A stretch of 21,612 bases of DNA from a virus, in IMG/VR virus record IMGVR_UViG_3300036944_001659, positions 1 to 21,612 of that record; one strand, written 5' to 3'. Below the pieces are notes generated by a model. It saw only the letters and a list, made by a program, of their open reading frames with translations. It was not told the DNA's origin and searched no databases. Of the stretch, positions 711-21,531 are shown one piece after another; the first letter of the stretch is position 1, and every line of letters starts with the position of its first letter. The position numbers and the translations under genes were made by a program.

Positions 711-3700
711 CTAATAAAATACTACCTTAGTATTTGGAGGCCCTACTATGTCGAGGTAGAAGTTAATCTCTTGACCTACTGTAGATATAGTCCAGGTACC
801 AATTTCCTGACTATCGCCTATTGGCATTGTTAGGGTTGGCATTAATATCTGGTTAGTATCTAGTGACCTTATTGTAAGTGATACAGGGTTTGTTGCTGTG
901 GCGTATACGTTTGGAGGGGTGTTTAGGTAGATTGTATACGTTTTGGAATAAGTAGTTCGTATATAGTAGGTAAACCTGTTGAGTAGAAATCCAGTATCGG
1001 CGATGGGTGAGTTTGGGGTTGATAGAAAGTCTAATATTCTGCTGTCAGGGTTTTTAAAAAACTGCAACGGGAAATTCCACATAGTTTGTCCAACATCTTC
1101 AATATTATTTGTAGTAAGATATGAACCTGTTTTATATGTTCGTAGCTGTAGTGTCTGATTGATAACGTTGGGGTATATGTCGAGTCTTAACGATTGACTA
1201 CAGGCTGTTGTTGCGGTATCTATAGCTTTAATTGTTACATATCCGAAGGTGTTGCTTGTTAAATTAGGGGAGGTGAATACTCCTGTAAAGTTATATGCAG
1301 TAGGTGTTGCTATTGTCTGTGTTGTGCTTCCTGATGTTATCGTGTATGATATGTTTGCAGGGTTGTTGCTTGCTCCTAGTGAGAACCATGATGTCACGTC
1401 TTGTGATGGGTTGTTAGTAGCCCCCATCATTGTTCGGCTGGTACCTTTTATTCCTATAGTACAGTACTCTGTATAGTATGTTATTGAACTTGTACAGTTT
1501 GCTATTGTGTCTTTTGATGCAGTTACTATATATGTAGTGTAGTTTGTTGGAAAGGTATATTCCGTTGGATTGCTGATTACTTGGCTGTTTAGTCTATACG
1601 TTACTGCTGCATCGCCAGGTATTGCAAAGTCTTCTGTTATATCGCGTATTACTTCTGGTGAGCTTGTTATTAGTATAGGTGCGTAAGATGCTGGCATTGC
1701 ACATATTGTACCACCGCCTGGAAAGTCTTTTATTAAGAGAACTGTACTATCTCTTCCTGAGTAATCCTCGTACAGGTATGGGTTATTTCTGGATAACTTA
1801 CCGTCTGTTACGACAACCAAGCTTCCTGATAGCTCTCCATTGTATTTAGGTTCTTCTTGTGTGTGAAACTCTTTATATCCTGTTCCAAATGGAGTTTGTA
1901 CTTCATCAAGCCATGCTGTTGAATAGCTATTGGAGTACCCATAAGCACCTCCGTCGGCTGCTTCAATAAAAGCTGTGACAATTGAAGCTGTATATTCGGG
2001 CTGTGTTACAGACACCAGTACTGATTTGGCTTTTGATCTATTAAGCAGATTCGGTTTAATAATAATACCAGTATCTGCTACAACTCTAGCAGGTATAAAA
2101 TCCTTAATAGTCTTAAAGATTGTATTATCAAAAAACTTAATAAGCCTTACATAATCCTGTAAGTCATACCGCTCTAAAGAACTTAGTATAGTTTCTGCTA
2201 CTATATCTAGTTGAGCGTAACTTCCAGATGATAGGTTTCTGGGATCTCCTATGTACTCGTCTATACTAAATGTGGAGGTTGCGTAAGGGTATAGGTTGGC
2301 TGTGATGTATGCATCTACATTATCGGTAGGAGAGAATCCTACTTCAATATTGTGCAGATCGTCGGTATATTTTGTATCTCTCTTAATGATTGATGTATTA
2401 CCTGATAAGGTACTACCTGTTACGATGCTTCCTGTATGATCCAGTCTAATCTTACCGAGTGAACTTGTATAGTGCCTGTAGTCGCCGAAGAAAGGTCTTT
2501 CGTTTGTGTTTCTTCCTCCGTAGTACTTTATTTGTAGAATATCCGATGGAATTCCGTAACAGTTGATTAACGCTCTTAAACCTCTCTCTGTTCCTTTAGA
2601 ACTGAGTAGTAGCGGTAAATTATGGTATAATCTTTTTTGTATTTCCTTTTGGTAACTATCATAAGAAACCGGCTGAATAGGTGTGTTAGATCCTGTATAC
2701 GATGCTGTTACGTAGTTCGTAATCTGTTCACTACCTGACTGGTATGGTTGTCCTATAATAGTTGCAAATAGATCTTCGATAGATTTATTTGAGGTATATA
2801 ACTTAACTCCAAAGTTCTTTAATGCTTCTCCTACTAAGTCTTTTGATATACCGAAATTAATTCTGTTGTCGGCATTATATTTGTCCGTTACTGCTTTTCC
2901 ATATAACCATAGGTTGTCGAAATGCTGACCTATCATGTTTATGAAGGTTACATAATTCTCATTGTTTGCATCATCTCGTAGGTAAGCCGGTACTGTATTT
3001 ACCAGTGCGTTGTTGTTTATACTGTCATACTTTAGTGCGTTATCTATTTGAGATGTATACCAGCTATTTGCAATATTAGTAGTACTTACCGCATTAGTAT
3101 ATGGCTTAGTTGCGTTTGCTTTTGGCCAACTATTACTTCCTGATTCGTAGTATAAAAATCTTTCGTAGTGATCAAAGTTACTTATTATTCCTTTAATTAA
3201 TCCGTTATAATAATCCTTACTTCCTGATGTACCGGCTAAGGCGATAGGTGCACTAGATATACTTGATAAGCTTGCTGAATGCTGAGTGATTAGGTCTAGT
3301 TTATACTTAAAATTAATCAACCTCTCTTGAGCGGATGAAAAATGTACAAAGCTGTCATAGTTTGTATAGTCTACACTTATATCAATACCTTTTTCGTTAA
3401 ATACCGAGTATATTTGGCTATTACTGTTATTTACTGGATAGCTAAATAGTTCGTCATAGTTGAAGTATTGAGAAGGGACTACATTATTGTCTTGTACCTC
3501 TATGTTAAAGTTAGCAGGACGCAAGTATGGTTGAGTAACTACTTCAATAGGTGCTTCTGATTCTACCTCGTATGCTATTGAATCTGATATAACCTCTACT
3601 ATGTTCAACGTACTTCCAATACCGTAGATATCTGGCAGTGGTTCGTAGAGCTTTACTCTTACTGCTGATTGATCATTATACGGTATTATACCTATATTTA

Positions 3701-14826: not shown

Positions 14827-14853
14827 AACGTTTCTTTGTTTAAGATTGATACC

Positions 14854-14884
14854 TAAAGATAAGGTAATCAGATCAAGTAAGCAA
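14854..14884 (-). promoter_or_regulatory. Early promoter, TTG-N20-TATCTTTA
   Basis: -33 TTG 14882-14884, -7 TATCTTTA 14854-14861, followed by GGTATCAA. Serves the 88-residue gene. Confidence 0.8.
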
Positions 14885-14891
14885 CTTTCTT

Positions 14892-15050
14892 TTAAACTAT
14901 TTGTGTAGACATTCTCTCTATCTTTCTATCCAATAGCTTTCGGCACTTATTGATTGGCTTACGTCTCATTGTGTCTCCTTGATGCTCTTTATAACTTGAT
15001 AAGGTTATACCTATCACAATTAATCCTATCATAGACACTATCTTATTCAT
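14892..15050 (-). CDS. Short protein with hydrophobic N-terminus (52 residues)
   Basis: Minus-strand ATG at 15048-15050 to TAA at 14892-14894. The first 20 residues (MNKIVSMIGLIVIGITLSSY) form a membrane span or uncleaved signal anchor; the rest is strongly basic (MRRKPINKCRKLLDRKIERM). It overlaps the end of the 75-residue gene by 8 bases, so it is probably translated by coupling. A second in-frame ATG preceded by AAGGAGACACA would give only the basic part (25 residues). A tiny membrane-tethered basic peptide is possible; function unknown. Confidence 0.55.
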   Translation of the reverse strand: MNKIVSMIGLIVIGITLSSYKEHQGDTMRRKPINKCRKLLDRKIERMSTQIV

Positions 15051-15270
15051 TGATAACAATACTTAAGCTTAATAGATCAACTGAGACTACTTTATTGTCT
15101 TTTGTTCTTATTACTCCTTCATCATTCTGGCTATGTATCTCTACTAGTATTCCTATTGTCTCTTTACCAAAGAATTTGTCTATGCCTTTGTAGACCATCC
15201 CTAGCATTGGAGAGGAGAGAGCCTCTATCTTACTTCCCCTCCCCTTCCATGTATTATATAACTCACTCAT
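15043..15270 (-). CDS. Hypothetical early protein (75 residues)
   Basis: Unrecognised. Begins MSELYNTWKGRGSKIEALSS; the second half reads like a small SH3-like beta barrel (KETIGILVEIHSQNDEGVIR, TKDNKVVSVDLLSLSIVIN). Such folds in phage proteins often bind nucleic acid or peptides, but that is a guess from strand pattern. The start overlaps the stop of the upstream gene (ATGA-type, one shared base), and its 3' end overlaps the short hydrophobic gene, so the three form one unit driven from 15520-15550. Confidence 0.72.
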   Translation of the reverse strand: MSELYNTWKGRGSKIEALSSPMLGMVYKGIDKFFGKETIGILVEIHSQNDEGVIRTKDNKVVSVDLLSLSIVINE

Positions 15271-15491
15271 TATACTGCCACTATGTCCAATAACTCAATA
15301 CCTTCTTTGATATTCTCAAGAGCTATCTTATAACCATATTGAATAGCCATCTGCATTAAAAGCATATCCATTGATCCATGATTGGCTTTTGCGAATGATT
15401 CCAAATCCTCTCTTGATTCTGGAGTTGCTACTATCCCACCTTGTAATCTTCTAAACTCGATTGCGAAAATCTCTTGAATGTCTTTTGTCAT
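15270..15491 (-). CDS. Hypothetical early protein (73 residues), helical
   Basis: Unrecognised, mostly alpha-helical: MTKDIQEIFAIEFRRLQGGI, then SREDLESFAKANHGSMDMLL and a final amphipathic helix (QYGYKIALENIKEGIELLDI). No membrane span or Cys. It is first in a three-gene unit with translational overlaps and has its own early promoter at 15520-15550. The leader ends in the shared AAGTTATGAC start context. Confidence 0.72.
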   Translation of the reverse strand: MTKDIQEIFAIEFRRLQGGIVATPESREDLESFAKANHGSMDMLLMQMAIQYGYKIALENIKEGIELLDIVAV

Positions 15492-15519
15492 AACTTATTG
15501 TTTTATTGATTAATATACC

Positions 15520-15550
15520 TAAAGATAATACTTCTAATTGTAACTTCCAA
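15520..15550 (-). promoter_or_regulatory. Early promoter for the three-gene unit
   Basis: -33 TTG 15548-15550, -7 TATCTTTA 15520-15527, then GGTATATTAA. Upstream part (AGTTGGAAGTTA) is nearly the same as at 18321-18351. Confidence 0.8.
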
Positions 15551-15552
15551 CT

Positions 15553-15951
15553 TTATTTTTTACATCTTTCATAGTAATGTCTCTCGCCATAAGCATTGAT
15601 AACTACATCCATAGGCTGTGTCATTGCTAGTTGATTCAACATCTGCTCTTCCATCCCTACATTCTTTAAGATGTATTGCATTGTATCACCATCTACATCC
15701 ATATGTTTCAACATTGAAATGATATCCTCTACCATACCTGGATATCCTCTCATCAATACTGTTTCAGGCTCTACGAAGTATGATTTAAAGAAACCTTCAT
15801 CAGTCCAACTGATAGTTAATACTTTCTCATTTTCTGTAATCAAAGTAGTTTGAAATAAATCAAAGCAAGTAATAACATCTGCCCAATCTAATTCGAATTG
15901 ACCTTGTCTAGAATTTTGAGCATCATCTAAGAAATAATTTACGTCCATCAT
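15553..15951 (-). CDS. Hypothetical early protein (132 residues)
   Basis: Unrecognised, acidic. MMDVNYFLDDAQNSRQGQFE leads into a beta-like stretch (EKVLTISWTDEGFFKSYFVE) and then helices rich in Met (VEDIISMLKHMDVDGDTMQY; EEQMLNQLAMTQPMDVVINA). The end is YGERHYYERCKK. No membrane segment. Two tandem ATGs open the frame; I keep the first. Promoter at 15981-16011 with a cUUCGg hairpin in its spacer. The next promoter's -33 begins 3 bases after this gene's stop. Confidence 0.75.
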   Translation of the reverse strand: MMDVNYFLDDAQNSRQGQFELDWADVITCFDLFQTTLITENEKVLTISWTDEGFFKSYFVEPETVLMRGYPGMVEDIISMLKHMDVDGDTMQYILKNVGMEEQMLNQLAMTQPMDVVINAYGERHYYERCKK

Positions 15952-15980
15952 AACTGTTAGTGTTTTTAATTATTGATACC

Positions 15981-16011
15981 TAAAGATAAGAAATTGCCTC
16001 CGAAGAGGCAA
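15981..16011 (-). promoter_or_regulatory. Early promoter with spacer hairpin
   Basis: -33 TTG 16009-16011, 20 bp, TATCTTTA 15981-15988, then GGTATCAA. The TTG itself pairs in the hairpin stem. Serves the 132-residue gene. Confidence 0.82.
15994..16011 (-). terminator. cUUCGg hairpin nested in a promoter spacer
   Basis: RNA sense: UUGCCUC-UUCG-GAGGCAA, 7 bp, loop closed by C-G. It follows the stop of the upstream gene, with a partly U-rich tail; either a terminator or an mRNA 3'-end hairpin. Confidence 0.5.
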
Positions 16012-16023
16012 CTCTTTTTTTAA

Positions 16024-16206
16024 CTATTCATCCACATCACACAACCCTTGAGAAAGAATATAATCATACAAACAGTCCATCTTTCTCATAAAACTTAAAT
16101 CAGTCAAATAAGATCGAGATAAAAAACTCTCCAATACATGATCATCTATTCCTCCTAAATCAACATAACCATAGTTCAAATCAAAATACTCTCTAACTTC
16201 TTTCAT
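16024..16206 (-). CDS. Hypothetical early protein (60 residues), acidic
   Basis: Unrecognised small acidic helical protein (MKEVREYFDLNYGYVDLGGI, then FLSRSYLTDLSFMRKMDCLY and ILSQGLCDVDE). Two Cys in the last 15 residues; no membrane span. Small, very acidic early phage proteins often bind and inhibit host enzymes or mimic DNA, but net charge here is modest, so this is only a possibility. Promoter at 16233-16263 uses the TATATTTA variant of the -7 box; start context AAGTTATGAAA. Confidence 0.7.
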   Translation of the reverse strand: MKEVREYFDLNYGYVDLGGIDDHVLESFLSRSYLTDLSFMRKMDCLYDYILSQGLCDVDE

Positions 16207-16232
16207 AACTTATTGTTTTAAATTTCTATACC

Positions 16233-16263
16233 TAAATATAGCGATATTAGTTTAGTGAGCCAA
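16233..16263 (-). promoter_or_regulatory. Early promoter, TATATTTA variant
   Basis: -33 TTG 16261-16263, 20 bp, TATATTTA 16233-16240, then GGTATAG. No spacer hairpin. Serves the 60-residue gene. Confidence 0.78.
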
Positions 16264-16284
16264 CTTTCTTACAAACTATTTTAA

Positions 16285-16314
16285 CCCAAAAGAGCCACCC
16301 TAAGGCAGCTCTTT
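16285..16314 (-). terminator. Intrinsic terminator after the 252-residue gene
   Basis: 11-bp stem AAAGAGCTGCC with GGTGGCTCTTT (two G-U pairs), TTAG loop as at 14553-14570, then TTGGGTT. The U-tract is short but the stem is long. Confidence 0.7.
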
Positions 16315-16342
16315 CTTCGATCAATAATTAAAACAATGTAGG

Positions 16343-17101
16343 TTATGAAGCTACTTCTTTAACCAAATCATCTCTTCTGTAGAAGACTTGATCCAATATT
16401 TTATCAATGCTAACATTTTCTGCTCTACCTTTATGTTCCCCAGCGTAGGTATAAACTACATCAGCTGTTTTTCCTGACTTCGAAACATTAATTATTTTAA
16501 TGTCTGAAATACGAGCTGTATAATTAAACTTAAATCGGATGTCAATATTCTTTTCAAACCCTAATACCTTTCCTGAGATTAAATCTTTTCTTAATTCATC
16601 CTTTATCTTTGAATACTCAATCGTTCTTAACTCTCCAATAAACGATTGTACTTCTTGAATCTCCTTATATACTTCATTCATTGCACCTTTGAATCTCATA
16701 GAATCATTATTGATTCGATCAAGAATTCTATCATGGAAAGCATGAACTATCTCAGCTACTTTCCCTAACATTTGTAATCTTAACAACTCCCATGCGTCAA
16801 TTCCCTTAGTAGATGTAGTATAATAGGAAAGGTCAATTCCTGTATACTTCTTACCATCTTCATCTAAACTCCAACCCTCTCTTAAGTAAAGATTAAATAA
16901 TTCTTTCTTGTAGTTGTAACTAGGATGATCCATTCTAAAATAAACTGACCCTCTAGTTACTTCGATTTCTATTTCTGGACTAAAATCTGAGAAGAAAGGT
17001 AATATGCTATTTGTAATAGCTTCTTGCTCTTGATTAACAATGTCAGCTCTTTTAGCTGCTAATTGATCTAATTCTAATTGTAATGTTGTAATTGATGTCA
17101 T
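16343..17101 (-). CDS. Hypothetical early protein (252 residues), largest of the early set
   Basis: Unrecognised. Three parts are visible: an N-terminal coiled coil (TTLQLELDQLAAKRADIVNQ to ~32), a mixed middle (~40-105, IEIEVTRGSVYFRMDHPSYN), and a helical bundle (~105-175, LGKVAEIVHAFHDRILDRIN). A final beta-rich basic stretch follows (~180-252, IDIRFKFNYTARISDIKIIN; KTADVVYTYAGEHKGRAENV). No catalytic motif or membrane span. It is by far the longest gene of the early run, with its own promoter (17141-17171) and a strong terminator just after it (16285-16314), so it is a monocistronic unit. A structural or nucleoprotein role is possible; unknown. Confidence 0.78.
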   Translation of the reverse strand: MTSITTLQLELDQLAAKRADIVNQEQEAITNSILPFFSDFSPEIEIEVTRGSVYFRMDHPSYNYKKELFNLYLREGWSLDEDGKKYTGIDLSYYTTSTKGIDAWELLRLQMLGKVAEIVHAFHDRILDRINNDSMRFKGAMNEVYKEIQEVQSFIGELRTIEYSKIKDELRKDLISGKVLGFEKNIDIRFKFNYTARISDIKIINVSKSGKTADVVYTYAGEHKGRAENVSIDKILDQVFYRRDDLVKEVAS

Positions 17102-17140
17102 AACTTTTTTTGTTTTAGATGATTGATTTATTTTGATACC

Positions 17141-17171
17141 TAAAGATAAGAAGAAGCCTCCGAAGAGGCAA
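17141..17171 (-). promoter_or_regulatory. Early promoter with spacer hairpin
   Basis: -33 TTG 17169-17171, 20 bp, TATCTTTA 17141-17148, then GGTATCAA. Serves the 252-residue gene. Confidence 0.83.
17156..17169 (-). terminator. cUUCGg hairpin nested in a promoter spacer
   Basis: GCCTC-TTCG-GAGGC followed by TTCTTCTT: 5-bp stem with the best U-tract of the series. Directly after the Myb/SANT-like gene's stop. Confidence 0.55.
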
Positions 17172-17176
17172 CTCTT

Positions 17177-17464
17177 TTACGAAAAATAATTCAACATTTT
17201 TCTTCTAGTAACATTACCCTCTTGAAGTATTTCCTCAATGGCTTGAACCATATGTGGAGTAACAATAGGATAAGCACTATTATCTCCTGAGAGAATCTTA
17301 GCTACCTCCTTAACCCGAATCTCTACAGCTGCATTTGTTCTATCGAACTGATGAGCTATTTTACTACAAATTGTCTTAACATCTCTTCTACTTACCTCAT
17401 CTAAGTAAAGCTGAATAAACAATTTAGATTCTTCTAAAGTCCATGGTGTGTTGTGCTTTGTCAT
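17177..17464 (-). CDS. Putative Myb/SANT-like DNA-binding early protein
   Basis: 95 residues. The first ~55 residues fit a Myb/SANT-like helix-turn-helix: NTPWTLEESKLFIQLYLDEV (conserved W and acidic EE opening the first helix), then KTICSKIAHQFDRTNAAVEI and RVKEVAKILSG, the 'I+..+.Rt..AV..R~' third helix. The C-terminal 35 residues form two more helices. Such proteins usually bind DNA sequence-specifically, so this is the best candidate regulator in the early block, though the match is by eye. Promoter at 17492-17522 with a spacer hairpin; its stop codon is 5 bases from the next promoter's -33. Confidence 0.72.
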   Translation of the reverse strand: MTKHNTPWTLEESKLFIQLYLDEVSRRDVKTICSKIAHQFDRTNAAVEIRVKEVAKILSGDNSAYPIVTPHMVQAIEEILQEGNVTRRKMLNYFS

Positions 17465-17491
17465 AACATTTATTTGTTTAAGATTGATACC

Positions 17492-17522
17492 TAAAGATAA
17501 GAAGAAGCCTCCGAAGAGGCAA
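17492..17522 (-). promoter_or_regulatory. Early promoter with spacer hairpin
   Basis: -33 TTG 17520-17522, 20 bp, TATCTTTA 17492-17499, then GGTATCAA. Spacer is identical to the previous promoter. Serves the Myb/SANT-like gene. Confidence 0.83.
17507..17520 (-). terminator. cUUCGg hairpin nested in a promoter spacer
   Basis: Same stem, loop and TTCTTCTT tail as at 17156-17169, after the 97-residue gene. Confidence 0.55.
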
Positions 17523-17527
17523 CTTTT

Positions 17528-17821
17528 TTAGCGTAATAATTCCTCTAATTGATAAGCTGTCTCTGCAGAAGTCTGATGTGAATGAGCACCAATATGCCAA
17601 TCCACCATTTCATCATCCGTCAATGGACGATAGTATTTCCAATCATAAACGCTAGCCGGCTCCCCATTGTAGTTAGCAATACACCATTCATAGTTTACTT
17701 TATACTCACCATTGTTGTCCATGATAGTTGGCTCCCCTAAGATCTGCTTTAGCTGATTTACACTAGCTGTAACTGTTACTCCATGGAAAGATGTTCCGGT
17801 TGTTTTGTCAATTGTTTTCAT
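17528..17821 (-). CDS. Hypothetical early protein (97 residues)
   Basis: Unrecognised globular protein. MKTIDKTTGTSFHGVTVTAS is followed by a helix (VNQLKQILGEPTIMDNN), a Trp/Tyr-rich beta segment (VNYEWCIANYNGEPASVYDW) and KYYRPLTDDEMVDWHIGAHS. 'LGEP...~kv.~eW.i' with a later 'W.IGahs' resembles small phage proteins of unknown function seen in many myoviruses (helix, then WxI strand); I cannot name the family with certainty. Promoter at 17850-17880 is unusual because its -33 box lies in a hairpin loop. Confidence 0.74.
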   Translation of the reverse strand: MKTIDKTTGTSFHGVTVTASVNQLKQILGEPTIMDNNGEYKVNYEWCIANYNGEPASVYDWKYYRPLTDDEMVDWHIGAHSHQTSAETAYQLEELLR

Positions 17822-17849
17822 AACTAATTGTTTTGTTGATTAATATACC

Positions 17850-17880
17850 TAAAGATAGAGAAAAGAAAGGAGATTAACAA
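17850..17880 (-). promoter_or_regulatory. Early promoter, -33 in a hairpin loop
   Basis: -33 TTG 17878-17880, 20 bp, TATCTTTA 17850-17857, then GGTATATTAA. The TTG is in the loop of a 9-bp stem. Serves the 97-residue gene. Confidence 0.78.
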
Positions 17881-17890
17881 CTAATCTCCT
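17868..17890 (-). terminator. 9-bp hairpin after the acidic-protein gene
   Basis: AGGAGATTA-GTTGT-TAATCTCCT followed by TTCTTTTCTC. A different sequence from the UUCG family, with the -33 TTG in its loop. Confidence 0.55.
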
Positions 17891-17908
17891 AACTTTTTTT
17901 CAAACTAT

Positions 17909-18283
17909 TTACAATTCATTATTTGCAATAGCTTCAACAACTTCTTCATTTTCTTCTAAATTCTCTAACTCCCTATCAAATTCTTCAATCGCTCCTTCAA
18001 CAATTTCAGTCAATCTTTCAATATTAATATTCATATCTTCAACTTCAATTCTATTTTGATAACCAATAGAAAATTCTACACTATAATAATCTACAACCTC
18101 ATCACTATTTAAGTTTTGAAATTCATAAGAAATTGTACTTTGCAAATCTTGTAATTTTCTACTAATTAACTTAACATCAAAATTACTTTCATCAATTGAA
18201 TTAATTAAAGCAATAACATCTTCTTTTGAAAAGATTGAACTAACTGAATTTTGAACCGATTCTAAAACATTTACTTTTTTCAT
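17909..18283 (-). CDS. Very acidic early protein (124 residues)
   Basis: Unrecognised. Strongly acidic with few basic residues in the last 60 (VEDMNINIERLTEIVEGAIE; FDRELENLEENEEVVEAIAN), predicted as long helices; the first part has FSKEDVIALINSIDESNFDV. The composition suggests a DNA-mimic or inhibitor-type protein, or an acidic chaperone; this is inference from charge alone. A local AT bias is higher than in its neighbours. Promoter at 18321-18351 has its -33 box inside the coding end of the upstream 39-residue gene. Start context AAGTTATGAAAAAA. Confidence 0.75.
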   Translation of the reverse strand: MKKVNVLESVQNSVSSIFSKEDVIALINSIDESNFDVKLISRKLQDLQSTISYEFQNLNSDEVVDYYSVEFSIGYQNRIEVEDMNINIERLTEIVEGAIEEFDRELENLEENEEVVEAIANNEL

Positions 18284-18320
18284 AACTTTTTGTTTTTAAT
18301 GATTGATTAATTATTATACC

Positions 18321-18351
18321 TAAAGATAAGTCTTTTGATTCTAACTTCCAA
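18321..18351 (-). promoter_or_regulatory. Early promoter, -33 inside upstream gene
   Basis: -33 TTG 18349-18351, 20 bp, TATCTTTA 18321-18328, then GGTATAAT. Serves the acidic 124-residue gene. Confidence 0.8.
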
Positions 18352-18460
18352 CTTTATTTTTAATTATTTCCTCAAAAGCTTTTAACATTTGCTCGTTGTC
18401 AGCTAGATGAATGTTTCCCATCTTCAACATCCACTCGTAGAATTTTTCTGCTTCTTCCAT
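18341..18460 (-). CDS. Micro-protein, 39 residues
   Basis: Minus-strand ATG 18458-18460 to TAG 18341-18343, one base after the stop of the preceding micro-protein. Sequence opens MEEAEKFYEWMLKMGNIHLA and ends KAFEEIIKNKVGS: a charged amphipathic helical pair, soluble. The final codons (V-G-S and stop) contain the -33 box of the promoter for the next gene, so coding and promoter DNA are shared. Support is codon regularity, tight spacing after the 33-residue gene and shared transcription from 18591-18621. Confidence 0.55.
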   Translation of the reverse strand: MEEAEKFYEWMLKMGNIHLADNEQMLKAFEEIIKNKVGS

Positions 18461-18461
18461 C

Positions 18462-18563
18462 TTAGATATGAGATTTAATTAGACAATACATGAACACTCC
18501 CCACACTAATACTAATCCTACTTTTGCAACATTAGCTGCCATTTGAACTGAATCTTTTTTCAT
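18462..18563 (-). CDS. Micro-protein, 33 residues, single membrane span
   Basis: Minus-strand ATG 18561-18563 to TAA 18462-18464. MKKDSVQMAANVAKVGLVLV then WGVFMYCLIKSHI: one membrane span (~residues 10-28) flanked by Lys on both sides. It directly follows an early promoter (18591-18621) with a leader like the other early genes (ACAAAGAGAAATTATGAAAA), which is the main reason to call it real despite its size. Function unknown; small single-span peptides can modulate host membrane enzymes. Confidence 0.6.
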   Translation of the reverse strand: MKKDSVQMAANVAKVGLVLVWGVFMYCLIKSHI

Positions 18564-18590
18564 AATTTCTCTTTGTTTAATTTTGATACC

Positions 18591-18621
18591 TAAAGATAAG
18601 GTATTGGCCCCGAAGGGCCAA
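18591..18621 (-). promoter_or_regulatory. Early promoter with spacer hairpin, two micro-proteins
   Basis: -33 TTG 18619-18621, 20 bp, TATCTTTA 18591-18598, then GGTATCAA. It supports the 33- and 39-residue genes downstream. Confidence 0.82.
18604..18621 (-). terminator. cUUCGg hairpin nested in a promoter spacer
   Basis: TTGGCCC-TTCG-GGGCCAA, 7 bp, with both strands of the stem changed relative to the GCCTC family. Poor U-tract, so termination is less certain. Confidence 0.5.
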
Positions 18622-18626
18622 CTTTT

Positions 18627-18899
18627 TTACCTACTTTCTTCAATTGCTTTTAAAAATTCTTCAATCACATCTTCATCTCCGCCACAATAACCTAACTCGC
18701 ATAAATTATCATTCTCCATATCATTTAGAATATCTCCTAATGAATTATAAGAATCAATTTGAAAAATTAATGCTCCTAAATTCCTATAATGATCTTGGTA
18801 GGCGACAAGATCTGCCTTTAATCCTGTTCTCCCATCATTGTAGAGAAGTTGTGCTCCTTCAATTAAAATTTGCTTTGCAGTCGATAATAAATTTTTCAT
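18627..18899 (-). CDS. Hypothetical early protein (90 residues)
   Basis: Unrecognised, acidic, helical. MKNLLSTAKQILIEGAQLLY, then ADLVAYQDHYRNLGALIFQI and an acidic end with two Cys (ENDNLCELGYCGGDEDVIEE). Cys-x4-Cys plus acidic residues could bind a metal, but two Cys alone are weak evidence. Promoter at 18926-18956 carries the TATTTTTA variant and a cUUCGg hairpin; start context AGTTATGAAAA. Confidence 0.73.
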   Translation of the reverse strand: MKNLLSTAKQILIEGAQLLYNDGRTGLKADLVAYQDHYRNLGALIFQIDSYNSLGDILNDMENDNLCELGYCGGDEDVIEEFLKAIEESR

Positions 18900-18925
18900 A
18901 ACTATTATTGATTAAGATTGATACC

Positions 18926-18956
18926 TAAAAATAGTAAATTGCCCCCGAAGGGGCAA
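18926..18956 (-). promoter_or_regulatory. Early promoter with spacer hairpin, TATTTTTA variant
   Basis: -33 TTG 18954-18956, 20 bp, TATTTTTA 18926-18933, then GGTATCAA. Serves the 90-residue gene. Confidence 0.8.
18939..18956 (-). terminator. cUUCGg hairpin nested in a promoter spacer
   Basis: TTGCCCC-TTCG-GGGGCAA, 7 bp: a third stem version, again fully paired. Follows the SH3-like gene. Confidence 0.5.
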
Positions 18957-18968
18957 CTCTTTTTACAA

Positions 18969-19229
18969 TTATTTTTCAAAAGATTTTCTATTGGCTTTAA
19001 ATGAAATTACATCATCCAAATTTACAAATCTAAAATCTCCCTTCTTCATATCATAAACACATAATAGCCCTTTCTCTGAAGGATCGAAAGAATGACCAAC
19101 TCCTTTAACTCCTTTACGAACACCCCTCATGGCATTCATCTTTCTAAGTTCTCCTGTAGTTCTTTTTACAAAAGTAACTGAGAATACTTTTTTGTTTGAA
19201 GTCTCCTTTAATAATTTTTCTACTAACAT
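18969..19229 (-). CDS. SH3-like beta-barrel small phage protein
   Basis: 86 residues, basic. The core follows a recurrent phage pattern: VFSVTFVKRTTGELRKMNAM (two strands with a polar turn), RGVRKGVKGVG, then SEKGLLCVYDMKKGDFRFVN and LDDVISFKANR. I recognise this strand order ('vtFvK..G~~R.m.~r.gv.k~~kG.g.....~~l~~VyD~~~~~yR~inld.i~~~~~ng') from small proteins of many tailed phages annotated as SH3-like barrels. The exact function is not known; nucleic-acid binding is plausible given charge. Promoter at 19254-19284 with spacer hairpin. Confidence 0.76.
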   Translation of the reverse strand: MLVEKLLKETSNKKVFSVTFVKRTTGELRKMNAMRGVRKGVKGVGHSFDPSEKGLLCVYDMKKGDFRFVNLDDVISFKANRKSFEK

Positions 19230-19253
19230 AACTGATTGTTTTAAATTGATACC

Positions 19254-19284
19254 TAAAGATAGAGAATTGGCCCCGAAGGGCCAA
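19254..19284 (-). promoter_or_regulatory. Early promoter with spacer hairpin
   Basis: -33 TTG 19282-19284, 20 bp, TATCTTTA 19254-19261, then GGTATCAA. Serves the SH3-like gene. Confidence 0.82.
19267..19284 (-). terminator. cUUCGg hairpin nested in a promoter spacer
   Basis: TTGGCCC-TTCG-GGGCCAA, same stem as at 18604-18621, followed by TTCTCTATCTTT. Follows the SAP-like gene. Confidence 0.5.
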
Positions 19285-19290
19285 CCTTTT

Positions 19291-19575
19291 TTAGTTATTT
19301 TTTACAACCAAACTGATATATGTTGGACGTACTTTCCCGCACTTCATTTTAGCTCCCCATCCTTCTTCTTCCAAGATCGCCTTAATCTCTTTAACAGATT
19401 TTTGATCTTTAACCAATTCTAAGATCCTAACCTTCATAGTAATCTCCTTTACCTCAGCCCCTTTCATGTACTTATCAACAAGTGCTTGAAGATCCTCAGT
19501 CTTCATCATGTGAGCTGGTTTAACTGTTTCTACGTTTAAGCTTTTTACTTGGGCAATTAATTCTGTTCTGTTCAT
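19291..19575 (-). CDS. Early protein with SAP/HeH-like N-terminus and helical C-terminus
   Basis: 94 residues, basic. Residues 3-34 (RTELIAQVKSLNVETVKPAH, then MKTEDLQALVDKYMKG) form two helices joined by a short loop with the L..K.L.V....~K.eL..L spacing of SAP/HeH domains, usually DNA-binding. Residues ~46-72 (MKVRILELVKDQKSVKEIKA, then ILEEEGWGAKM) look like a winged-helix-type turn and the end (RPTYISLVVKNN) like a recognition helix plus wing. I read this as a probable DNA-binding protein at moderate confidence. Promoter 19613-19643. Confidence 0.72.
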   Translation of the reverse strand: MNRTELIAQVKSLNVETVKPAHMMKTEDLQALVDKYMKGAEVKEITMKVRILELVKDQKSVKEIKAILEEEGWGAKMKCGKVRPTYISLVVKNN

Positions 19576-19612
19576 AACTTTTGTTTTTAAATGATTGATT
19601 AATTTTGATACC

Positions 19613-19643
19613 TAAAGATAGAGAAAAGGATCGGAACTGCCAA
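19613..19643 (-). promoter_or_regulatory. Early promoter
   Basis: -33 TTG 19641-19643, 20 bp, TATCTTTA 19613-19620, then GGTATCAA. An imperfect stem (GAAAAGGG with TCCTTTTC) spans the spacer. Serves the SAP-like gene. Confidence 0.8.
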
Positions 19644-19661
19644 CCCTTTTCCCATTTATTT

Positions 19662-20051
19662 TTAAACTAATTCAAAATCTACATTTTGAACGAATACGAA
19701 ATCAGCCCAAGTCTTAGCACCTACTGCTTTATATTGTTCCTGAGAATATAAGTTAGTATTGTAGAACAATTGATTAACTGTCCCTACTTCCAATCTCTCA
19801 GCAATCTTTTCATCCATTAGGATAACCTTAGTACCCTTCTTAGCGAACACTGTAAACCAGTGTTTAGCTCCCTCAGGCTGGAATTGAATAGTTTGAAGAG
19901 CTCCTTTCTTCCATCTATTAAGAGAAGGAATCTCAGTACCTATCTCATAAGCAACTATAAAACCTGCTGGTACTTTAGTAATGGCCTGGAATGTACCTTT
20001 TCCTTCTCTAATCATGTTTACAATGCTTAAATCTTTAATCTTGTTTATCAT
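19662..20051 (-). CDS. Hypothetical early protein (129 residues)
   Basis: Unrecognised, basic, mixed alpha/beta. MINKIKDLSIVNMIREGKGT, then PAGFIVAYEIGTEIPSLNRW, a hydrophobic stretch with Trp (GAKHWFTVFAKKGTKVILMD), and an aromatic end (QEQYKAVGAKTWADFVFVQN). No membrane span; no Cys. Among the early set this is relatively long and not AT-extreme. Monocistronic from its promoter (20079-20109), which has a weak stem in its spacer. Start context AAGTTATGATAA. Confidence 0.75.
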   Translation of the reverse strand: MINKIKDLSIVNMIREGKGTFQAITKVPAGFIVAYEIGTEIPSLNRWKKGALQTIQFQPEGAKHWFTVFAKKGTKVILMDEKIAERLEVGTVNQLFYNTNLYSQEQYKAVGAKTWADFVFVQNVDFELV

Positions 20052-20426: not shown

Positions 20427-20753
20427 TTATTTTTCTATCCAAATCAAATCTACCATAGATAAAAAATATAAAAAAAGATAATAAAAAGTTTGGACCGATA
20501 GGTATTTGTTCGTATCTTTAGGTACTATCAAAGAGATAGGGGGCCTGGCACTGAAAGATTGTCGGAAGAGTAGACGGGCCGGTACCTTATATTCTGTAGT
20601 TGGTATTACATAGTACCTGGTATGTAAATAGGAAAAGGGACCCTTTTGAGATCCCTTGTGCTTGTTTTTCCTGGTATAGGATTTTTTTGACTTGTGAGCC
20701 ACCCCTCTTGTGGCAGCCCATCTCTCCTGGAGAGTGACCTGAATTGTTTTCAT
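20427..20753 (-). CDS. Small basic protein; C-terminal half doubtful
   Basis: 108 residues. The start lies one base from the upstream stop, implying coupled translation. The first ~37 residues (MKTIQVTLQERWAATRGVAH then KSKKSYTRKNKHKGSQ) are extremely basic with a 'RWAATRG.~hKSKK~YtRKnKhK' core I recall in small phage proteins; nucleic-acid binding is likely. From ~residue 40 the sequence becomes irregular, and from ~85 strongly hydrophobic (SVQTFYYLFLYFLSMVDLIW). The minus frame there lies opposite a plus-strand promoter-like site (20489-20520). The N-terminus is believable; the rest may be chance open frame. Confidence 0.55.
   Translation of the reverse strand: MKTIQVTLQERWAATRGVAHKSKKSYTRKNKHKGSQKGPFSYLHTRYYVIPTTEYKVPARLLFRQSFSARPPISLIVPKDTNKYLSVQTFYYLFLYFLSMVDLIWIEK
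20489..20520 (+). promoter_or_regulatory. Plus-strand promoter of the early class, no gene behind it
   Basis: TTTG 20489-20492, exactly 20 bp, TATCTTTA 20513-20520, then GGTACTATC. It has the full Bacteroidetes TTTG box and the phage-specific AGGTA extension. It points away from its neighbours and lies opposite the end of the small basic-protein gene. No sensible plus-strand open frame follows. Confidence 0.6.
20521..20700 (+). ncRNA. Candidate structured or antisense RNA from the plus-strand promoter
   Basis: Downstream of the promoter at 20489-20520 there is no open frame of note. The DNA has pairing segments: CCGGTAC (20579-20585) with GTACCTGG, and AAGGGA with TCCCTT near 20645-20665, then a T-run. 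The RNA would be antisense to the basic-protein gene. The end point is unknown; the coordinates are a guess. Confidence 0.3.
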
Positions 20754-20754
20754 G

Positions 20755-20970
20755 TTAGAAAAAGAATTGATTGTGAGTTATGTGAATGCTTTGGAGGAAC
20801 TGCACCCCTACCGAATCTTTCCCTCTGGATAGATCCCCATGCTGGGCTGGAGTCACCTCCAGTATACATAGCTCTCTGCCTACCTTAATTAATTTTGACC
20901 TGTGTGTTGGAGAATAATTACATGAAGAATCCTTCCCAATTACTGTTTTTAATTCTGCTATCTTATCCAT
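20755..20970 (-). CDS. Hypothetical early protein (71 residues), corrected start
   Basis: I start at ATG 20968-20970 (MDKIAELKTVIGKDSSCNYS), just after the promoter. The frame is open 17 codons further up to 21021, but that stretch is the promoter itself read in frame (IFRYQ is ATC TTT AGG TAT CAA), so it is not protein. No recognised family: basic middle (PTHRSKLIKVGRELCILEVT) with two Cys, then a polar end (SVGVQFLQSIHITHNQFFF). Higher G+C than its neighbours. Promoter 20991-21021 is preceded by repeat array A. Co-transcribed with the basic-protein gene. Confidence 0.62.
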   Translation of the reverse strand: MDKIAELKTVIGKDSSCNYSPTHRSKLIKVGRELCILEVTPAQHGDLSRGKDSVGVQFLQSIHITHNQFFF

Positions 20971-20990
20971 ATCTATCTTATTTTGATACC

Positions 20991-21021
20991 TAAAGATAAG
21001 AAGAAAGATCCAATGAAGCAA
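20991..21021 (-). promoter_or_regulatory. Early promoter below repeat array A
   Basis: -33 TTG 21019-21021, 20 bp, TATCTTTA 20991-20998, then GGTATCAA. It fixes the start of the 71-residue gene at 20970. Confidence 0.8.
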
Positions 21022-21036
21022 CTATTTTTTAATTTA

Positions 21037-21061
21037 TTTTTTACCCCACCCCGGAGGGGGG
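21037..21061. repeat. 25-bp GC-rich element, copy 1
   Basis: T6, then ACCCCACCCC, GGA, G6. Identical to 21440-21464. Flanking TGG lets it form CCACCCC with GGGGTGG (7 bp) on the minus strand; no U-tract follows, so it is not an ordinary terminator. Confidence 0.85.
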
Positions 21062-21070
21062 TGGCCAAAT

Positions 21071-21186
21071 CGGGTTCCTAGCGGGTTTCCAAACGGGTCT
21101 CTACCGGGTTACAGAACGGGTTTCAATTGGGTATCCAAACGGGGAACAAAACAGGTATAGGAACGGGTTACAAATGAGTCTCTAGA
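21071..21186. repeat. Array A: CGGGT repeats, 11/12-bp units forming 23-bp repeats
   Basis: Plus-strand units begin at each CGGGT or one-base variant with spacings 11,12,11,12,11,12,12,12,11,12, that is five ~23-bp double units (e.g. CGGGTTCCTAG plus CGGGTTTCCAAA). A period close to one helical turn puts the motifs on one DNA face. Not divisible by three, so not coding. It lies upstream of the promoter at 20991-21021 and next to the 25-bp GC-rich element. Confidence 0.8.
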
Positions 21187-21376
21187 ATGGCCAGGTTATG
21201 AAGCCGAAGGCGATACTTACCCCTAGAGCCGTTACCAGGTAAACCACCTTCTCTATAAGAGGTGCCTGGAAGATTAAATACCATAGCCATATAATAAGGC
21301 CAGGTATTATAAGAAGGAAGGCTATGAACTGGATTAGTTCCCAGATCCCGGTAGCATTTTTTTCTAACTTTGTCAT
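21182..21376 (-). CDS. Small two-span membrane protein, corrected start
   Basis: 64 residues from ATG 21374-21376 (MTKLEKNATGIWELIQFIAF). Upstream codons in the open frame translate the promoter (again IFRYR) and are excluded. Two membrane spans: ~residues 12-36 (WELIQFIAFLLIIPGLIIWL) and ~43-62 (KVVYLVTALGVSIAFGFITW), with a short polar loop. No catalytic motif. The gene is flanked on both sides by the CGGGT repeat arrays and by copies of the same 25-bp GC-rich element, so the gene and elements may have been duplicated or moved as a unit. Its stop overlaps the last unit of array A. Confidence 0.72.
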   Translation of the reverse strand: MTKLEKNATGIWELIQFIAFLLIIPGLIIWLWYLIFQAPLIEKVVYLVTALGVSIAFGFITWPF

Positions 21377-21396
21377 AACAATTAATTTTCTATACC

Positions 21397-21427
21397 TAAA
21401 GATAGGAAAAGGAATTGGCCTAGACAA
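21397..21427 (-). promoter_or_regulatory. Early promoter below repeat array B
   Basis: -33 TTG 21425-21427, 20 bp, TATCTTTA 21397-21404, then GGTATAGA. It fixes the start of the two-span membrane protein at 21376. Confidence 0.8.
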
Positions 21428-21439
21428 CTTTTTTTAAAG

Positions 21440-21464
21440 TTTTTTACCCCACCCCGGAGGGGGG
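21440..21464. repeat. 25-bp GC-rich element, copy 2
   Basis: Exact copy of 21037-21061, between the promoter at 21397-21427 and array B. Here the flank differs, so the stem is only 4-5 bp; the conserved part is sequence rather than fold. Confidence 0.85.
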
Positions 21465-21472
21465 AAGTGAAA

Positions 21473-21531
21473 CGGGTCACTAGAACGGGTTCCTCCCGGG
21501 TTACAAAACAGGTTTCCAAACGGGTATCTAG
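21473..21531. repeat. Array B: second CGGGT repeat array
   Basis: Five units with spacings 13,11,12,12 and a final CGGGTATCTAG. It contains CGGGTTCCTCC, CGGGTTACAAAA and CAGGTTTCCAAA, clearly the same family as array A. It lies in the same position relative to its GC element and promoter, but is half as long. Confidence 0.75.

Follow-up and report, generated by a model that had tools for sequence, protein, structure and literature searches.

A stretch of viral DNA of 21,612 nt (IMG/VR virus record IMGVR_UViG_3300036944_001659, positions 1–21,612; hereafter the window, meaning the whole stretch analysed) carries two noncoding arrays of a short direct repeat, and arrays of the same kind stand at the corresponding place in its relatives. 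A protein that starts, or organises, the copying of the phage genome probably docks on them. The favoured explanation, to which we give a probability of about 0.4, is a nucleoprotein site of iteron type that would form on double-stranded DNA and would most probably serve as a replication start resembling oriE of phage T4. Judged by its sequence, the window is from a T4-like myovirus of Bacteroidota with Flavobacterium phage immuto among its relatives; its main genes all lie on the minus strand, its baseplate proteins match T4-type wedge families, and immuto is the best annotated relative, with a wedge protein of 69% amino acid identity.

Arrays of a 12-nt unit in the window and its relatives

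On the minus (transcribed) strand the unit reads ACCCG(T/A)YY followed by a random linker, with a period of 11–13 nt and a mode of 12. Array 1 (21071..21179, minus strand) consists of nine good ACCCG-type units and one decayed unit, 11–12 nt apart, and is kept in relatives. In the plus-strand reading, CGGGT starts at 21071, 21082, 21094, 21105 and 21117; the variants TGGGT (21128), CGGGG (21140) and CAGGT (21152) follow, then a unit at 21164 and the decayed TGAGT at 21175, giving spacings of 11, 12, 11, 12, 11, 12, 12, 12 and 11. The chain score of this array, 14.5, exceeds anything obtained from shuffled sequence (at most 3.7 when the whole window was dinucleotide-shuffled 200 times, and at most 5.5 when only the array was shuffled, 5000 times), and the array is not attributable to chance. 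An earlier, sequence-only reading had described a CGGGT-type array of ten units at 21071–21186; this array is present, but with its tenth unit decayed, and a second array had been missed. Array 2 (21473..21525, minus strand) has five units, one of them CAGGT, at spacings of 13, 11, 12 and 12 nt, and is the equivalent of array B of the relatives.

Relatives were found by searching with the MKTIQVTL... gene described below and with a gene near it, and by scanning for the pattern. At least 27 further contigs, immuto among them, carry such arrays at the corresponding place with the phase kept (the near-identical copies L367 and L382 were left out of this count). In nearly all relatives with sufficient sequence there are two arrays, A and B, some 250–470 nt apart with noncoding DNA between them; those of immuto lie at 66317–66415 and 66770–66893, ahead of its first early promoter. 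In each of four genomes of 157–167 kb the arrays are confined to a single locus, where the cluster of early promoters begins. The strict array patterns also caught many GC-rich contigs whose repeats are of hexamer type; these were dismissed on composition and context. No arrays were found in six distant contigs (L361, L374, L376, L377, L379 and L383) which have a homologue of the window gene at 19662–20051 in another gene context, nor in a CGGGT-pattern scan of 37 baseplate relatives, mostly fragments, one of which (L011) has arrays of the AACCG type. The structure prediction for the 19662–20051 protein had a mean predicted local distance difference test score (pLDDT) of 50 and was not used.

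Unit-by-unit scoring covered 24 genomes, the window included. Among 353 spacings, 276 are of 12 nt, 44 of 11 and 31 of 13, so that the unit is a single 12±1-mer and not the 23-bp double repeat first proposed; the alternation of 11 and 12 nt on which that proposal drew holds for the first seven units of array 1, but not for those that follow, and no regular alternation is seen in relatives. Nor do the motifs share a helical face as had been suggested, since phase coherence is 0.12 at the 10.5 bp per turn of relaxed B-DNA and reaches 0.98 at 11.55. The noncoding character claimed for the array is borne out across 54 arrays, in which none of the reading frames is consistently open, and this rules out a coding repeat. 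In contig L091, the array positions 16350–16445 and 16811–16933 are annotated in GenBank as the hypothetical genes immuto26A_121 and immuto26A_122, which are probably not true genes.

The segment between A and B contains a conserved imperfect dyad, CATATAGTAC-TAGGTA-N-AAGGTACTRTAT in phages with ACCCG units and a variant of it in those with AACCG units, together with a conserved ATGTGTA; contig L241 is without a clear copy of these elements, and the window stops short of the segment. Between array B and the promoter, four AACCG-class contigs (L266, L273, L317 and L329) have an inverted repeat, ATTCGCAA..ATTGCGAAT, with its halves ~70–80 nt apart; in the ACCCG class this place is often taken by a GC-rich hairpin. 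The general plan of the site, which stands at the upstream edge of the early-gene cluster, is one of two A[C or A]CCG-W-Y-Y arrays on either side of a segment with a dyad, followed in many phages by a hairpin or inverted repeat and then by the promoter of the first early genes.

Constraint on the unit and the ACCCG/AACCG switch

When arrays of relatives are aligned, unit positions 1–4 differ in 0.7–5% of comparisons and linker positions 9–12 in 24–33%, a contrast which is partly circular in that the core was used for calling units. Base 2 of the unit divides the genomes into two classes: in 13 of them 97% of the 210 units have C at this position, and in the other 11 genomes 97% of the 193 units have A. 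Linkers are near random in both classes and position 5 is G in 84–90% of units. Spacing in the AACCG class is almost strictly 12 (145/160), while the ACCCG class tolerates 11–13 nt. Departures from the core, over all loci, are mainly ACCTG/AACTG and ACCCA/AACCA, which are transitions at the CG step.

Homogenisation of the arrays is unlikely to explain the switch because the linkers would then have changed too; a coherent change at base 2 amid random linkers therefore points to a sequence-specific recogniser, and away from both homogenisation and base composition. The simplest reading would be that a recogniser acts in trans and has a different target in each class. With the conserved phase and the core constraint, the switch strengthens the proposal of the sequence-only reading that a repeat-recognising protein binds here, as at iterons or another nucleoprotein site. 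Of the conditions which that reading named as refuting it, the one on conservation, loss of the phase in relatives, does not apply. The window gene behind array 1 is the sister of that of contig L102 (support 98/99 in the tree of MDKIA-type genes), an AACCG-class phage whose protein shares 82% amino acid identity with it, yet the window array is wholly of the ACCCG class, and so motif class does not simply move with the downstream gene. The gene trees compared with motif class are otherwise poorly resolved, this being the only supported node that holds the window.

The paired classes provide a genetic route to the recognising protein. Together with the noncoding setting of the arrays, they make the question of iteron function testable in a cultured pair, immuto and Flavobacterium sp. 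LMO8. Two DNA-binding candidates put forward earlier did not hold up, as the protein encoded at 17177–17464 is present in none of the four near-complete array phages and that at 19291–19575 in one of the four. The small 17177–17464 protein matches a winged-helix model (E 0.015) and T5 D5-like regulators (E 0.0098), in both cases weakly.

A possible replication start and its alternatives

Under the favoured explanation, a phage or host protein would recognise the unit in double-stranded DNA and assemble along each array, each ~12 bp taking up a protomer or a dimer. As this step is longer than a helical turn, the protein would wind as a superhelix instead of lying on one face. Two such complexes would bracket the segment between the arrays and might start early DNA replication, as is suspected for the 12-nt iterons of T4 oriE, with the adjacent early promoter supplying an RNA primer or strand opening. 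The replication step is the least certain part of this scheme and draws on analogy, on the single-locus layout and on a compositional shift: in three of the four genomes AT skew at codon position 3 falls near the arrays from ~0.15–0.24 to no more than ~0.04, and in the fourth it begins to drop just before them.

The analogy is with the evenly spaced 12-nt repeats of T4 oriE, which adjoin an early promoter, recur as syntenic iterons in close relatives and have no established function (Vaiskunaite et al. 1999, reviewed in PMC3016281). The present arrays resemble them in their ~12-nt spacing (276/353 exactly 12), their adjacent early promoter and their conservation in a syntenic place; they differ in being noncoding, in forming two arrays 250–470 nt apart and in their unit, A[C/A]CCGWYY. 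In the T4 oriE region, the repeats at 79426–79557, presumably the published iterons, lie within coding repeats of gene 5 with a period of 24 nt, or 8 codons. Here a different T4-like clade keeps 12-nt arrays in noncoding DNA, where the constraint on them cannot come from protein sequence.

Several points weigh against a replication start. The T4 parallel is weak support, given the coding context of the repeats there and the unestablished role of those repeats in oriE (PMC3016281). The shift in skew occurs where the early-gene cluster lies, and gene class could be its cause. No AT-rich unwinding element was found, the 25 nt before the −33 box having an AT fraction of 0.74 against 0.81 at other early promoters, and no conserved candidate for an initiator was identified, nor any initiator among the selected window proteins scanned. 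Finally, the cassette of array, hairpin and promoter is duplicated in the window, which fits a promoter function as well.

Such a function is the best-placed alternative, although we consider it rather unlikely: a protein on array B would repress or activate the first early promoter, with array A helping by looping. An early promoter of Bacteroidota type does follow array B in every contig that extends far enough to show a recognisable promoter, in agreement with the position first described; 22 promoters were located past arrays of the B type, and the window's duplicated cassette serves two genes. The repeat arrays of pSM19035 omega/parS and of R1 parC control promoters too (PMC5016525). However, the −33 box lies anywhere between 8 and 99 nt beyond array B, which is a poor fit to a classical activator, and only one of the 15–20 early promoters per genome has arrays, so that the array is unlike an ordinary promoter element. 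The first gene is moreover exchangeable (of MDKIA, membrane or L099 type), and hence there is no single regulated product.

A transcription boundary is improbable. In this model the arrays would act in RNA as engineered-looking rut sites, with a CC step every 11–13 nt and a pause hairpin, where Rho would block transcription into the early cluster. RhoTermPredict looks for C in excess of G over 78 nt, C every 11–13 nt and a downstream hairpin (PMC6407284). The arrays share the C spacing, the hairpin and, in the ACCCG class, the excess of C; array 1 plus its hairpin has a C/G ratio of 1.68, the arrays border the early cluster, and a stop codon is often found within 7 nt of the start of array A. 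Over ~78 nt, however, C/G is 1.07–3.0 in the ACCCG class and 0.89–1.30, about 1, in arrays B of the AACCG class, and a factor that reads composition, at G-poor sites lacking a set motif, would not require a fixed pentamer with the A at position 1 and the G at position 5 kept and base 2 switched coherently. Hairpins resembling intrinsic terminators stand at several other early genes, and in immuto one with a T run (GCCTCATTACAGAGGCTTTTTTATT) already precedes array A. In the relatives no full early promoter was found in the 800 nt upstream of array A, nor onward to array B, and this, with the immuto hairpin, implies that the region is not necessarily transcribed early. RNA folding of the arrays showed no systematic lack of structure. 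Together with the C/G of about 1 in the AACCG class, these observations favour recognition at the level of DNA over a rut site or an RNA sponge.

Also improbable is a centromere-, anchor- or packaging-like nucleoprotein site, of the ParR/parC or TubR/tubC kind, which would hold or move phage DNA. The sites parC (bound by ParR), tubC (TubR) and pSM19035 parS (omega) are arrays of short direct repeats, some of them split into blocks, which are wound with protein as superhelices or filaments (PMC5016525). The present locus is likewise a split array of direct repeats near a promoter, with one site per genome. It differs in belonging to a T4-like phage, for which partition is not an evident need, and in that neither a motor gene nor a repeat-binding partner turned up, although no search was aimed at ParM, TubZ, ParR or TubR across whole genomes. 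No fixed genome ends fall at the array, the 127-nt end overlap of genome G002 lying ~8 kb away. The repeats that T7-type phages have beside their terminal repeats are not matched either, the arrays being internal in immuto, G038, G043 and G002; the window and contigs L273 and L310 end near arrays, and the repeats may be the cause of these ends.

An RNA element, for example a set of single-stranded sites that act as a sponge and bind an RNA-binding protein of Bacteroidota, or a 3' untranslated region (as the sequence-only reading had also suggested) with stability elements, would account for a unit that always reads ACCCG or AACCG in the gene direction, for the flexible ACCCG-class spacing of 11–13 nt and for the position of window array 1 directly after a stop codon, but is improbable given that no early promoter was seen upstream of array A, which in immuto has the terminator-like hairpin before it, that the two arrays of a genome share one locus and their common orientation therefore does not count as independent evidence, and that the arrays gave no Rfam match and show no systematic lack of RNA structure.

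The usual spacing of plasmid iterons is 17–22 bp. The arrays resemble plasmid iteron origins of the R6K gamma type in consisting of direct repeats in tandem that a sequence-specific initiator presumably reads, and differ from them in their ~12-nt spacing, in the missing AT-rich unwinding element and in that no Rep gene was seen among the selected window proteins scanned. We assign the arrays to none of the known systems compared, and the search entries of papers that mention immuto say nothing of them.

Array cassettes, neighbouring genes and a candidate antisense RNA

Each window array is followed, in the minus direction, by a copy of the direct-repeat family D16 (21037–21061 and 21440–21464; 25 nt, 100% identical). 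The first copy overlaps the GC-rich hairpin ACCCCACCCCGGAGGGGGGTGG at 21043..21064, between array 1 and its promoter, and the second contains the identical GC-rich block ACCCCACCCCGGAGGGGGG at 21446..21464, between array 2 and its promoter. A pattern search of viral contigs for the window hairpin returned only L009, a GC-rich chance match. The two early promoters, of Bacteroidota type with the form TTG-N20-TATCTTTAGG, lie at 20989..21021 downstream of array 1 and at 21395..21427 downstream of array 2, both on the minus strand. From the first is read the small MDKIAELK... gene (20755..20970, minus strand), whose relatives stand behind arrays in nine loci, the window counted; from the second, a gene for a small hydrophobic, membrane protein (21182..21376, minus strand), just past whose stop codon array 1 starts and in whose place immuto has a similar-looking gene. 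The small genes downstream of the arrays are without a PHROGs family. Next after the array cassette in nearly all relatives is the MKTIQVTL...KSKKSYTRK gene (20427..20753, minus strand in the window).

The 3' part of this last open reading frame overlaps a candidate small RNA on the opposite strand (GGGGCCUGGC..GGAAGAGUAGAC..; 20525..20669, plus strand), which follows an antisense early promoter, TTG-N20-TATCTTTAGG (20490..20522, plus strand), that is conserved in relatives. The candidate RNA ends at a terminator-like hairpin, AAGGGA..UCCCUU, with a U run; the window copy was read by eye, a simple scan having failed to flag it. In relatives with sufficient sequence the promoter and RNA lie 525–852 nt from array B, the copy in L241 being unclear. 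The RNA hairpin shows compensatory changes and, by the simple scan, is followed by an intrinsic terminator in about half of the cases. The RNA falls into two sequence classes that match the array classes. Base pairing between the RNA and the array, inspected by eye, is not kept across the class switch and was rejected. The RNA has no Rfam match; the Rfam search gave only a tRNA and a spurious sub-threshold hit. Repeats of the AAGTTAAAGC/TTTAAGTTAAAG type occur inside the stretch covered by the antisense RNA in contigs L091 (~17370–17450) and L362 (~3430–3550). Tentatively, the locus might be a noncoding control hub of T4-like phages of Bacteroidota, in which twin arrays bracketing a dyad, a phage-specific reader with a switched word and an antisense early small RNA ~0.55 kb away would jointly start replication or set the early programme.

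The −33/−7 promoter of Bacteroidota resembles the form TTG-N19/20-TATCTTTAGG that precedes most of the small early genes at 14–21 kb in the window. The PeSL cassettes of T4-like phages, which Arbiol in 2010 and Comeau in 2014 are said to have described (both cited in PMC4503421), reportedly consist of an early promoter joined to a stem-loop and repeated between early genes. To our knowledge they are without a tandem array; the window differs in duplicating array, hairpin and promoter together. Between the genes at 14846–19663 of the window, terminator-like hairpins (for example GCCTC-TTCG-GAGGC) lie between the −33 and −7 elements, in the spacer of the early promoter that follows. The end of one gene thereby overlaps the start of the next, in what look like PeSL-like promoter–terminator cassettes of a Bacteroidota phage.
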